DNA of 64,000 nt from contig DVID01000047.1 of NCBI GenBank assembly GCA_018711625.1, positions 1 to 64,000 of the forward strand. Direction: 5' to 3'. The number at the start of each line of letters is the position of its first letter. Positions within the stretch are counted from its first letter, which is position 1. The DNA comes from Candidatus Limicola stercorigallinarum (GTDB lineage Bacteria > Actinomycetota > Coriobacteriia > Coriobacteriales > Coriobacteriaceae). A program made the position numbers and the translations under genes. Positions 58,376 through 63,743 of the stretch are shown in pieces. Below the pieces are notes generated by a model, which was given only the letters and a program-made list of their open reading frames with translations, searched no databases and had not been told where the DNA came from.

Positions 58376-59989
58376 CTAGAACAGGTGGGCCTCTTCAATG
58401 GCGCGCATAACAAAGGTTGCGCCCTCGATGCGCGTGCATGACCTTGTGGGGCTCAGCTTGTTTCCACTTCCCTGAATGAGGCCTATCTGGAGTGCTTCAA
58501 GAATGCTTGCTTGGGCCCACGAGGAGGTTGTGTTGCTATCGGCAAAGCTTCTGTAGAGCTCCCACGTGCTCTGGCCGTAACCGGAGTGATGCTCGGCGAG
58601 ACGAAGCAGGATTACCACGACCTGTTCACGCGAAATGGGGGAGTTGGGTGCAAAGCTTGTGCCTCCGCCTACACCGGCGATGGCGCCTGTTCTCACGGCC
58701 CAGTTGGCTGCTCCGGTATACCATGCATGCGAAGCCACGTCTGCCATGCCCGTTGTATTGACCGCAGTTGTCATGTTGTATGAGTTTGCCTCATGTGGCG
58801 CAAGGTAGCGCCAAAGCATCGTGGCAAATTGAGCGCGTGTGAGTGTGGCCGAAGGTGCGAAGGTTACCTCGTTAAGGCCTGTGAGAATGCCTGCGTCAAA
58901 CACGTATTCAAGCACGCCGCTTGTAACGTACCAATCGTTGGCGCCTACATCGCGGAAGCGGTAGAGCGGCTCAACGGGCTCAGAATACGTTTCCCAGCTG
59001 CGCACATTGTCATAGCGCTGATCGTTGCACGCTGGAGTGGGAGACCATCCATAGTGGTCGCGCGCACGCATGGCTTGGTCGGAGATCATGAAGTAATCGG
59101 TGTCCACCTTGTCCCAAAAGCCTCCGTCAGCTCCCGTGCTGGAGCTCGGTGGGTCATCCCATGTGACATCGACGTGATAGTTCTTACCGTTGATGGTCAC
59201 GATGTTCCAGCCATGGTTCATGGCTGTGGAGCTCACATATGTGCAGGGTATGCCAGCTTTTTGCATGAGGGCCATATACGCCTCGGAGTATCCTTGGCAC
59301 ACGGCTGTTCCGCGCACAAGCGCCCCGTAGGCGGTGTACGATTCGCTCGGTATGGTGCCATGCAGGTAGTTTGCATAGTCGTAGACACAAGTTCGCACAA
59401 GGTAGTCGTGAAGCGCCTTCGCCTTCTCAAGGTCTGTCATGTTGTAGCCCACCCAGAGCAGCGCATCGTAAACGGCATCGTTATATTGGTCGCGCATGAC
59501 AGCAATCTGTGCTGTGCTCCAATAGTAGATGGGCTGGAGAGAAAGAACGCGACCGGAGTAGTCATAGGTGATTGTTGTCGTGCGGAAGTAGAACAGGTCG
59601 GGATAATTGTTCCAAAGCCGATCGAGTGCGGCGAGCGCATCTTGATAGGTGGCACCAACATACGACACGTCTATATAGCTTTGCACGGCGTTGACAGCGC
59701 GCACCATAATGCTTTCTAGCGTAGACACGTTTGCTGCAGAGAGTTGATCAATGGACGCTTCGCTATTAAGGGGGAAGTCGGCGGGATTGTCTTTGGAGCG
59801 GGTGATTGTGGTCAGGCCCTGCTGCGCCTGCAGGGCTGTTTCCGTTGTTGCTGCGGTTTCCGTCGTTGCCGTGGCTCCCGCCGTTGGTTCTGCAGTCTCA
59901 GTGGCATACGCTGTGGCAACGTTTGCACCTGGTAAGAAAAGGAGCACAAGGGCGAAGCAAATGGGGGAGAGGCGTCTGAGAAGATGCAT
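58376..59989 (-). CDS. Secreted transglutaminase-like protein with SLH domains
   Basis: The 537-residue surface protein has a signal peptide (LCFALV-type segment FALVLLFLPGANVATAYA, about residues 11-28), a Thr/Ala-rich linker, a helical region, and a transglutaminase-like core. The predicted triad is Cys231 in TAVCQGYSEAY, His259 in MNHGWN and Asp274 in HVDVTWDDP. Three SLH domains from about residue 345 (FRDVGANDWYVTSGVLEYVFDAGILTGL) anchor it to the wall. The core may be a protease, a cross-linker or an amidase-like enzyme; the sequence does not say which. The ATG at 59989 follows AAAGGAG; a longer frame to 60112 lacks a signal at its start. Confidence 0.88.
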   Translation of the reverse strand: MHLLRRLSPICFALVLLFLPGANVATAYATETAEPTAGATATTETAATTETALQAQQGLTTITRSKDNPADFPLNSEASIDQLSAANVSTLESIMVRAVNAVQSYIDVSYVGATYQDALAALDRLWNNYPDLFYFRTTTITYDYSGRVLSLQPIYYWSTAQIAVMRDQYNDAVYDALLWVGYNMTDLEKAKALHDYLVRTCVYDYANYLHGTIPSESYTAYGALVRGTAVCQGYSEAYMALMQKAGIPCTYVSSTAMNHGWNIVTINGKNYHVDVTWDDPPSSSTGADGGFWDKVDTDYFMISDQAMRARDHYGWSPTPACNDQRYDNVRSWETYSEPVEPLYRFRDVGANDWYVTSGVLEYVFDAGILTGLNEVTFAPSATLTRAQFATMLWRYLAPHEANSYNMTTAVNTTGMADVASHAWYTGAANWAVRTGAIAGVGGGTSFAPNSPISREQVVVILLRLAEHHSGYGQSTWELYRSFADSNTTSSWAQASILEALQIGLIQGSGNKLSPTRSCTRIEGATFVMRAIEEAHLF

Positions 59990-60199
59990 AGGGGCTCCTT
60001 TCCATACAAGGCGGCACGCTTGAGGCCATGGTATCGTGTGCAAGAGCGCTCGAGCTTCGAGGAGAGTAGAGTGGCGGGAATCGTAACGTGCGTGATGCGG
60101 AAATGTGGCCACGGTTCTGGTGTAGCTTGCAATGGCTTGAACATCCGTGCAGGTAGAACACCTAATTTGAGCTCACCCAAACTTTCTTAGAAAATTCTC

Positions 60200-60247: not shown

Positions 60248-60337
60248 GTCGGAGTGGCGGAATTGGCAGACGCGCTAGCTTGAGGTGCTAGTGACCACAT
60301 TTCGGTCATGCGGGTTCAAGTCCCGCCTCCGACACCA
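60248..60337 (+). tRNA. tRNA-Leu (anticodon GAG)
   Basis: The acceptor arms are GTCGGAG and CTCCGAC with an encoded A-CCA end. The D-arm carries GGCGGAATTGGCAGACGCG. The anticodon arm is CTAGC-TTGAGGT-GCTAG, giving GAG. A long variable arm and a T-arm with GGTTCAAGTCC complete a class II tRNA, as expected for leucine. Confidence 0.96.
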
Positions 60338-60349
60338 GCGCAACTGATA

Positions 60350-60377
60350 CCCAAACCCTTCGGGGTTTGGGTTTTTT
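60350..60377 (+). terminator. Terminator of tRNA-Leu
   Basis: CCCAAACCC and GGGTTTGGG pair with a TTCG loop and are followed by TTTTTT, 12 bases after the tRNA. The remaining 200 bases to the next gene hold no clear feature apart from a GGGGGAG ribosome site. Confidence 0.95.
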
Positions 60378-60577: not shown

Positions 60578-62989
60578 ATGGATACCATAGGACGTTCGGA
60601 TGCCACGACGCTCTCGCGGCTCGTTGAGCTTACGAGCGACGCCGTTGTGGTCTGTGATACTGCGGGAACCATCCTCCATGTAAACCACCAGCTGCTTAAG
60701 CTTGCGCGCAAGGAGCGCGGCTCCATCGTAGGTACCGACATCAAGGACTTGATGTTTAGCGAGTTCTTCGAGCGTGCTGGCGACCATCGTCTGCCGTTTC
60801 CGCTCAACGGCACCGATTGCGTCAACATGCTCAAGCTTGCTGACGGCTCGTTCGTTCCCGTGCATACGAGGGCGCTTGCTCCTTCGGCTACCGTGACCGA
60901 GGAGCATCCCAATCTTATCCGTCGCATGCTTCCGCGTGGTCGTGTGCTTGTAGTGATGCAGAGCCTTGAGGAGCAGTATGCTCACGACCGGCAGATGCAT
61001 CGCGTGCTCTCTGAGCTTCAAGCGGCCAATAAGCGCCTTTCGGGTACACTTTCGGTCATTATGTCTACCGTGGGTGCGGAAGATCTTCCGTCGCTTCTGG
61101 ATAATGTTTTGAACCGCTTGGTGGATGCGCTTGATGCCGATGGCTCCCTCATTTACTTCTCAGAGGGCGGTGGGTTCAAGCTGCGCGGTGTTTCACGCGG
61201 CCTTGAGCACGACTACGTGCCCGAGTTTATCCCGTATGGCGTGGGCATTCCCACCTATGTACTGCGTCACACACGCTCGTGCCGGTTTAACATTGTGCCT
61301 TCAGGCGACCATCGTGGTATTGATGCGGGGCAGTTTTACGACCTCGATGCGCGAAGCAGCCACAAGTTGCGCGTGCAGGATACGCCGCCTTTTAAGACCA
61401 CCATCGACGTGCCCGTGTTTTTTGGCATGCAGATCTTGGGCGTGATTGAGCTGGGTTGGAAGCGCTTTACCCCGCCTCGTCCCTATGATGTGAACGTGCT
61501 GGAGGTAATCTGCGACTACCTCTCTATCGAGCTGGTGAGTCTCACGACGGCATTGCGCTCTCAACGAGCAGCCGAGCTCACGCGTTCGCTCAACCACCTG
61601 CGCGACACGCTCTACGCCTTCGAGGGCGATCAGGGGACGGTGTGGTGCGAGCTTAACGTCGAGGTGCGGCGCGTGCTCGCGTGCAGACTCTGCCCCGTGG
61701 TGTTTGATGAAGAGCTGGGCGGCTATGTTATAGATTACGAAGACGGGGATCAGGCGCTCCTTCCCGATGACATAGACGACGTCTTTTTCTCTACAACAAC
61801 GCCGGCTGCTCGTATGGGCCATGCTGCGCGTGATCACTTTGCTCATACGGGCCTTCAGGGTCTGGACGAGGCAGACCTCAAGTTTGTGCGACTCACGCGC
61901 ATCGATCGCGGGTCGCGCGCTGGCCGCTGGCTGGAATCGCATGGACTTCCCAGCCAGGGGGCGTTTTTGGACCTTAGGGGCCGCCCCGATGCCCGGGAGA
62001 CGGCTTCTGCCTGCGTGGCGTGCGGCGGAGAGGGCCTCGTGCCGTCGCAGCCCCCGGGGCCTCCCCTTATGGTGATGCTCTTGCGCGACGGCTCTCAGGA
62101 GCCCATTGACGATATGGAATTCGATTACCTCGTGCGCTTTGCCCACGACCTTGAGCTCTTCGCGCACAATATGGTGCAGCGGAGCGAGAGCACGCGCATT
62201 GCCCAAACGCTGCAAAGCGGTATGCGCAGCTCGCTGGGTTCGGTTCCAGGCATTACAAGCGACGCGCTGTATTCTTCGGCCACGCGGCAGGCGCTTGTGG
62301 GCGGCGATTTCTACACGTTGCTGCGTATGCCCGACGACCACGCTCTCATGATTTTGGGAGATGTCTCGGGCAAGGGGGTGGAGGCAGCATCGATGTCTGC
62401 CTTGGTGAAGACCGCTCTCACGGCGTATGCCTGGGAGGGCGCGAGCCCGGTTGCCATGGTGCGATCGCTTAATGCCATGCTCATGAGCTTCTCGCGCGTA
62501 GAGACCTTTGCCACCCTCTTTGTGACCGATATCGATCTTCGCCGGCATACAGCTACCTATTGCTCTGCCGGGCATCCGCCCACGATGCTTATTCGTGGCG
62601 CTACATCAGGCGAGGGGTCTACGGAGGAGGCATGTGGCGCGGCTGCGGACGCGGGCGAGCACGATAGCGTTGCCGAGATTGAGCTTTTAAGCACGCAGTC
62701 GGGCGTGGTGGGTGCTTTTGAGGGCATGTCGTACCAGATGGGTTCGTTCACGTGGAATCCGGGTGACATCCTCTTCATGTATACCGATGGCGCCATTGAG
62801 GCACGCAGCCCTTCCGGTGAGTTTTTTGGCGAGCAGCGGCTGCGCGACATTTTGCTTATGCGGGCCTCCGACGGTGTAGAAGGTTTGTGCCGGAGCGTGC
62901 TGAACGAGCTTGATGTGTTCAGCGCATCGGCGCTTGAAGATGATATTGCCCTGGTGGCGTTGCGCTTGGACGGCGTTGGCGCGCGGTAG
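60578..62989 (+). CDS. PAS-GAF-PP2C (SpoIIE/RsbU-type) serine phosphatase
   Basis: The 803-residue cytosolic protein has an N-terminal PAS domain (LSRLVELTSDAVVVCDTAGTILHVNHQLLKL, about 6-120), a GAF domain (about 170-330; LVDALDADGSLIYFSEGGGF), a central linker with CVACGG, and a C-terminal SpoIIE-type PP2C phosphatase (about 560-800). The metal-binding Asp residues are in ILGDVSGKGVEAASM, FMYTDGAIEARS and LEDDIALVALRL. Such phosphatases dephosphorylate STAS antagonists to activate partner switching. A STAS-HATPase fusion gene follows after 25 bases and is the likely partner. The start at ATG 60578 has GGGGGAGCC upstream. The signal sensed by PAS/GAF is unknown. Confidence 0.9.
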   Translation: MDTIGRSDATTLSRLVELTSDAVVVCDTAGTILHVNHQLLKLARKERGSIVGTDIKDLMFSEFFERAGDHRLPFPLNGTDCVNMLKLADGSFVPVHTRALAPSATVTEEHPNLIRRMLPRGRVLVVMQSLEEQYAHDRQMHRVLSELQAANKRLSGTLSVIMSTVGAEDLPSLLDNVLNRLVDALDADGSLIYFSEGGGFKLRGVSRGLEHDYVPEFIPYGVGIPTYVLRHTRSCRFNIVPSGDHRGIDAGQFYDLDARSSHKLRVQDTPPFKTTIDVPVFFGMQILGVIELGWKRFTPPRPYDVNVLEVICDYLSIELVSLTTALRSQRAAELTRSLNHLRDTLYAFEGDQGTVWCELNVEVRRVLACRLCPVVFDEELGGYVIDYEDGDQALLPDDIDDVFFSTTTPAARMGHAARDHFAHTGLQGLDEADLKFVRLTRIDRGSRAGRWLESHGLPSQGAFLDLRGRPDARETASACVACGGEGLVPSQPPGPPLMVMLLRDGSQEPIDDMEFDYLVRFAHDLELFAHNMVQRSESTRIAQTLQSGMRSSLGSVPGITSDALYSSATRQALVGGDFYTLLRMPDDHALMILGDVSGKGVEAASMSALVKTALTAYAWEGASPVAMVRSLNAMLMSFSRVETFATLFVTDIDLRRHTATYCSAGHPPTMLIRGATSGEGSTEEACGAAADAGEHDSVAEIELLSTQSGVVGAFEGMSYQMGSFTWNPGDILFMYTDGAIEARSPSGEFFGEQRLRDILLMRASDGVEGLCRSVLNELDVFSASALEDDIALVALRLDGVGAR

Positions 62990-63014
62990 ATGCAGAAGCG
63001 AGGAACGGTGGCAT

Positions 63015-63743
63015 ATGCGTGAATGGAACGACATAGCGGTAATCGCCCCTACGAGCGATATCGACATTTCGTCCGTGCCGTTGCTGCGCGAGCAGATGGA
63101 TACGCTTATTGAGAGCGGCATGCGGCGCATTCTCATCAACTGCCGCAACGTAAAGTTCATTGACTCCACGGGCGTGGCGTTTCTTGTCTCGCGCGCACGG
63201 CGTCTCATGCGCGATGACGGCATGCTCTCGCTCGAAAATGTGTCGGCTGCGGTGGCGCGTTTTTTGCAGATCGCCCGGTTGCTCGACGCGCTGCACGTGA
63301 CCCTGGCCGACCGTCCGCCGGTACCGGTGCTTTCTCCCGGCGAGCTGCCGCAATGGAGCAAGAGCATCCCGGTGCAGGCAGGTATTGAGCACCTAGCGGG
63401 ATATCGCCATCGTGTGCTGGAGCTCTTGGAGGGGCTGCCGCTCAGTCGCGAGGCGTGCTATGACACGGCGCTTGCGGCGGGGGAGGCGTTAGGCAATGCC
63501 TACGATCATGCCGATGGTGCCGGCTGCGTACTCAACGTGCGGGCGTATGGGGACCGTGTAGTTATTGAGGTGTGTGACTGCGGCGAGGGATACGAGATTG
63601 CCGACAACGAGGAACCCGATGAGTCGGAGGAGCGCGGCCGCGGCATTAGGCTCATGCGTATGTTGGTGGACAGCGTTGAGGTGCGGAAACGTACCGATGT
63701 GCGGGGAACCATGGTGCGCCTGGTGAAGCTCCTTGCGGTGTGA
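63015..63743 (+). CDS. Fused STAS antagonist and HATPase anti-sigma-type kinase
   Basis: The 242-residue protein joins an RsbV-like STAS domain (about 1-100) to an RsbW-like HATPase_c domain (about 110-242). The phospho-acceptor Ser51 is in FIDSTGVAFL. The kinase part has the N-box AAGEALGNAYDHADGAG, the DxGxG-like CDCGEGYEI and the G-box GRGIRLMRMLVDSV. In classical systems these are two proteins (RsbV and RsbW). The upstream PP2C phosphatase would remove the Ser51 phosphate. No sigma factor gene is adjacent, so the final target is not visible. The ATG at 63015 has GAGGAA upstream; longer in-frame starts inside the previous gene are rejected. Confidence 0.87.
   Translation: MREWNDIAVIAPTSDIDISSVPLLREQMDTLIESGMRRILINCRNVKFIDSTGVAFLVSRARRLMRDDGMLSLENVSAAVARFLQIARLLDALHVTLADRPPVPVLSPGELPQWSKSIPVQAGIEHLAGYRHRVLELLEGLPLSREACYDTALAAGEALGNAYDHADGAGCVLNVRAYGDRVVIEVCDCGEGYEIADNEEPDESEERGRGIRLMRMLVDSVEVRKRTDVRGTMVRLVKLLAV

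Follow-up and report, generated by a model that had tools for sequence, protein, structure and literature searches.

A single polypeptide that joins a STAS domain of the RsbV type to an HATPase kinase domain of the RsbW type, encoded directly behind a sensor phosphatase, raises the question of which output such a fused partner-switching pair could serve. An earlier note on this locus had proposed that the kinase could phosphorylate its own STAS domain in cis, with the phosphatase resetting it, and that something other than a sigma factor may be the output. We therefore analysed the stretch of 64,000 nucleotides that carries the locus (the window), the assembly to which it belongs (1.96 Mb in 49 contigs, about 95% complete), a class sample of 159 Coriobacteriia genomes, in which SigB was called at E below 1e-50, and a phylum sample of 396 genomes that was searched for the fusion.

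The phosphatase and fusion genes

Pfam searches located both the STAS and the HATPase domain in one open reading frame of 242 residues, lying 25 bases after the gene of a PAS-GAF-PP2C phosphatase on the same plus strand, in agreement with the earlier reading of this arrangement; the PAS match of the phosphatase stays below its cut-off (Table 1). The fusion displays the DSTG motif (residues 50-53) with the predicted phospho-acceptor of partner-switching STAS domains, as well as the N, G1 and G2 boxes of RsbW/SpoIIAB-type HATPases. These motifs, which had already been described as intact, proved to be near-invariant: D50, S51, E157, N161, H165, D188, G190, G208, R209 and G210 are identical in all 74 non-identical homologues, with G192 shared by 73 of these. 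In most of the rows compared, the linker shows lower conservation than each of the two domains. The AlphaFold model of the fusion comprises two confident domains (mean pLDDT 88.6, pTM 0.76), which matched RsbV/SpoIIAA and RsbW/SpoIIAB structures in the fold comparison. An assignment to the RsbA family (NF041045) was not obtained, as the fusion scored 52 bits, over its HATPase part only, against a curated cut-off of 210. Since the same single chain was read in 28 related contigs and matched at full length in most genomes of the class (see below), the fusion is not an assembly artefact.

Among the contigs of the genome searched, the phosphatase gene of the window is the only one encoding a full SpoIIE-family phosphatase, and the metal-binding or catalytic Asp residues of its GGD, GDV and TDG motifs and both of DD are retained in all 96 aligned homologues that cover them. 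A further candidate on contig C40 was rejected as a second RsbU-type phosphatase because it scored higher as a classical PP2C (58 bits) than as SpoIIE (28 bits); by eye, its neighbours resemble FHA and kinase genes. Between the GAF and PP2C domains of the window's phosphatase, approximately 250 residues (320-570, window positions 61535-62290) gave no Pfam match. This stretch contains a CxxC motif (ACVACGG), ends in a GAF-like manner when inspected by eye and is possibly a second, divergent GAF domain.

Upstream of the phosphatase gene, the terminator-like hairpin suggests that transcription of the phosphatase-fusion pair probably starts from a separate promoter downstream of the hairpin. In several relatives, the phosphatase reading frame extends back into a similar leader (MRVQVPPPTP) near the tRNA-Leu and hairpin region, suggesting a conserved site upstream of the phosphatase. 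The minus strand at 58376-60112 encodes a 578-residue protein in which transglutaminase-like and S-layer-homology-like stretches were recognized by eye.

Table 1. Features of the phosphatase-fusion locus, in window coordinates.
Feature	Position	Strand	Details
tRNA-Leu	60248-60337		Upstream of the hairpin and the phosphatase gene
Terminator-like hairpin between tRNA-Leu and phosphatase gene	60349..60372	+	Consensus scan; not above shuffled background
PAS-GAF-PP2C (SpoIIE/RsbU/RsbP-type) phosphatase gene	60578..62989	+	803 aa; ORF and Pfam
Weak PAS-like segment of phosphatase, residues 12-62	60611..60763	+	Pfam PAS_8 18.3 bits, below cut-off 21.8
GAF domain of phosphatase, residues 168-319	61079..61534	+	Pfam GAF_2 31.6 bits, GAF 31.1 bits
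PP2C domain of phosphatase	62330..62968	+	Pfam SpoIIE 148 bits, E 3e-43
STAS-HATPase fusion gene	63015..63743	+	242 aa; ATG at 63015 within ORF 62910-63743
STAS (RsbV/SpoIIAA-like) domain, Pfam match residues 5-94	63015..63305	+	STAS 52.8 bits; TIGR00377 69 bits, above cut-off 53.45
Ser51 codon, predicted phospho-acceptor (D50-S51-T-G)	63165..63167	+	S in 74/74 homologues
Linker joining STAS and HATPase, about residues 98-121	63306..63377	+	Alignment
RsbW/SpoIIAB-like HATPase (kinase) domain, Pfam residues 122-238	63378..63728	+	HATPase_c_2 65.7 bits
N box of kinase, residues 157-165	63483-63509	+
G1 box of kinase, residues 188-192	63576-63590	+
G2 box of kinase, residues 208-210	63636-63644	+

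Further switch components in the genome

The earlier statement that no sigma factor lies nearby holds for the window, as matches to sigma-70 region 2 occurred on other contigs only; for the genome as a whole it does not. The search for a sigma-B-like factor, which the note had recommended, yielded one SigB/F/G-type sigma factor on contig C43 (TIGR02980, 291.6 bits at a cut-off of 234.35), the start of which overlaps the gene of a 128-residue RsbW homologue (L042:7404-8574, same contig). A second, lone STAS protein of the RsbV/RsfB type (104 residues, DSTG intact) is encoded on contig C35, and its Ser is kept in all 30 copies read. The fusion, the lone STAS gene and the sigma operon thus occupy distant loci, with the fusion pair not near the sigma operon.

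Examination of the sigma-linked RsbW revealed NCBIfam and Pfam matches to its N-terminal half only. In all 68 non-identical class sequences, the N box no longer has its Asn (it typically reads EEAFIYAC or EEGFVYAC), and the DxGxG and GxG motifs are absent. The best fold matches of its model (pLDDT 93) were B. subtilis RsbW, M. tuberculosis UsfX (in complexes with RsfB and with SigF) and SpoIIAB. Judged by these sequences, the protein is apparently kinase-dead and able to act only as an anti-sigma factor. Counterparts in other actinobacterial classes likewise lacked the kinase motifs in 20 of 20 loci read, 18 of which had a sigma factor match in the same locus, and a split of labour between a kinase-dead anti-sigma factor and a separate kinase appears to be general in Actinomycetota.

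Separate rsbV and rsbW genes elsewhere in the genome that serve this phosphatase had been named as an observation that would speak against the proposed cis switch. A separate rsbV does exist, but the separate RsbW is devoid of every kinase motif and is therefore unlikely to replace the fusion as kinase. The four other HATPase_c_2 matches in the genome carry histidine-kinase domains (HisKA or His_kinase) and were ruled out as RsbW kinases on these grounds, which leaves the fusion as the only RsbW-type kinase with intact motifs found in this genome.

In a search for the SigF/SigB-type promoter GTTT-N-GGGWA, the 400 bases preceding the PP2C genes contained one site, at a single distant locus (L166), and the upstream regions of the lone STAS and rsbW genes contained none. 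As no SigF-type pattern recurred, we did not predict a regulon.

Distribution in Coriobacteriia and beyond

The survey for the same fusion in other Coriobacteriia, also suggested beforehand, returned full-length matches in 124 of the 159 genomes, and SigB was detected in 123. The two co-occur in 121 genomes and are jointly absent from 33, giving 154 concordant and 5 discordant genomes, of which three carry the fusion only and two SigB only (G014 and G079). Together with the SigB/F/G factor and its own RsbW in the genome under study, this concordance leaves the earlier suggestion of an output other than a sigma factor unsupported. The lone STAS protein was found in 126 genomes, the number also matched by the fusion profile, and was missing in 33, at least 20 of which are the same genomes that lack the fusion. 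Regarding the discordant cases, G014 gave an HATPase-only match, the fusion being cut off by a contig end, and the three fusion-only genomes lack both SigB and the dead RsbW, two adjacent genes that a single deletion or gap would take out together. One of these three, G124 (L168; 98% complete, 2 contigs), holds the PP2C-fusion pair and two lone-STAS matches, and its fusion may do something without SigB.

Most absences (26 of 33) fall into one family, f3, and the others belong to two further families, plus a single genome from a mixed family; the counts are thus not independent and imply only a handful of independent losses. The 26 genomes of f3, which is probably Eggerthellaceae and belongs to the same order, were without SigB, the fusion and, among those listed, the lone STAS protein. 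In nearly all loci read, the gene immediately preceding the fusion encodes a PP2C phosphatase. For distant families, the alignment of this phosphatase is restricted to its PP2C end, indicating that the sensor regions differ.

Within the phylum sample, full-length single-frame fusion matches were, among the matches listed, confined to Coriobacteriia. Thirteen out-of-class candidate loci, large reading frames with one matched domain, were rejected, as none holds both domains in one frame. In other actinobacterial classes, the hits of the fusion profile are to unfused STAS and HATPase genes, which are often neighbours. In the adjacent pairs (L217-L228), the order is that of the fusion, with the HATPase gene directly behind the STAS gene, and the two frequently share a reading frame interrupted by one stop. 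The fusion therefore probably arose by the joining of such a pair.

Proposed wiring and alternatives

We consider it likely that the PP2C phosphatase and the fusion, as phosphatase and kinase, make up the input arm of a SigB/SigF-type stress switch, the remaining components of which are encoded at two distant loci. In favour of this model are the intact fusion, the motif-less sigma-linked RsbW, the near-complete joint presence and absence, and the operon with PP2C, whereas the three fusion-only genomes, the distance from the sigma operon and the lack of a recurrent SigF-type promoter count against it. Who phosphorylates or binds whom in the Coriobacteriia switch we infer from Mycobacterium smegmatis, in which RsbW1 binds SigF and has no kinase activity, while RsbW2, with N/G1/G2 motifs, is the sole kinase of RsfB (Ser63) (PMC7693655). 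Both systems have a sigma-linked RsbW that lacks kinase motifs (here) or kinase activity (there), a separate RsbW kinase with N/G1/G2 boxes, a single-domain STAS antagonist and a PP2C phosphatase thought to reset it. In contrast to M. smegmatis, where RsbW2 (148 aa) is a protein of its own, encoded in one operon with RsfB, the kinase described here has an N-terminal STAS domain and the PP2C gene directly upstream, and the lone STAS gene is located elsewhere.

According to this analogy, the HATPase of the fusion would be the kinase that holds the lone STAS protein phosphorylated and thereby off. The PAS-GAF sensor would activate PP2C, leading to dephosphorylation of the lone STAS protein, which could then bind the dead RsbW and free the sigma factor. 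Via Ser51, the fused STAS domain would likewise be a substrate of this kinase and this phosphatase, and it would probably gate the kinase, with the unphosphorylated form occupying the kinase site and the phosphorylated form releasing it, so that one phosphatase event would restore the antagonist and damp the kinase. The basis for taking such gating as the most likely role of the fused STAS domain is the conservation of Ser51 together with the precedent of Rv1364c. This M. tuberculosis protein (PDB 3ke6), described as limited to pathogenic mycobacteria, combines PAS, PP2C, kinase and STAS domains in one chain, in which the kinase domain phosphorylates the chain's own STAS domain (Ser600) and the phosphatase domain removes the phosphate (PMC9138534). 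As in Rv1364c, a sensor, a PP2C domain, an RsbW-type kinase and a STAS domain would work together in Coriobacteriia; unlike Rv1364c, they are divided between two genes rather than held in a single chain and follow the order STAS-kinase, and the fusion is found in most of a class. With this precedent, self-phosphorylation of the fusion in cis is plausible. The neighbouring PP2C probably resets the fused STAS domain. A further point against the model is that the sigma factor might also be bound directly by the fusion kinase.

The switch also shares its PP2C phosphatase, phospho-Ser STAS, RsbW-fold proteins and SigB/F/G sigma factor with the Bacillus RsbU/RsbP-RsbV-RsbW-SigB system. There, RsbW is a separate protein that serves as both kinase and anti-sigma factor, whereas here these functions appear to be divided between two proteins, and the kinase is joined to a STAS domain; as far as motifs can tell, a sigma-linked RsbW of this dual type was not found among the 68 class sequences.

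A self-contained switch was considered as an alternative. In it, the kinase would have its own STAS domain as sole substrate, PP2C would reverse the phosphorylation, and a non-sigma partner would be the target of the free STAS or kinase domain. Such a device would fit the two intact domains, the conserved operon with PP2C and the retention of the fusion in three genomes where neither SigB nor its RsbW was found, but we regard it as unlikely given that the fusion is present or absent almost completely together with SigB and the lone STAS protein across the 159 genomes, and that, the fusion aside, no intact RsbW-type kinase was found for a lone STAS protein whose Ser is kept in every copy read.

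Slightly less probable still are two readings that retain SigB as output and assign the fusion another place. The fusion could itself be an anti-sigma factor, its HATPase binding SigB in parallel to the dead RsbW under control of the STAS part, as the domain has the RsbW/SpoIIAB fold and Bacillus RsbW performs both jobs (PMC7693655); however, sigB in the genome studied already has a dedicated RsbW homologue, whose gene overlaps it, and the kinase-type RsbW2 of M. smegmatis does not bind SigF (PMC7693655). Equally improbable is that the fused STAS domain is the main antagonist, binding the dead RsbW and releasing SigB, with the lone STAS protein as an auxiliary. While Ser51 is invariant in the fusion, just as the corresponding Ser is in the 30 lone-STAS copies, the lone STAS protein is kept wherever the fusion profile matches (126 genomes), which suggests that it is not optional.

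Returning to the input-arm model, a more far-reaching version, which we put forward tentatively and rather doubt, would be a class-wide self-gated kinase, whose built-in STAS domain must be phosphorylated before the kinase acts on the free antagonist. A single PP2C would then both reactivate the antagonist and shut off the kinase, resulting in a sharper switch than that of separate rsbV and rsbW genes, its probable source by gene joining.

The partner switch itself is already known and close to the mycobacterial SigF layout, of which the STAS-kinase fusion is a variant; a literature search of limited reach found no description of this variant. The present analysis provides a parts list for the apparent general stress switch of Collinsella, Enorma, Atopobiaceae relatives and deeper Coriobacteriia. 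As a natural fusion of a kinase with its predicted substrate, the protein also makes cis versus trans phosphorylation and the logic of partner switching directly testable with small purified proteins.
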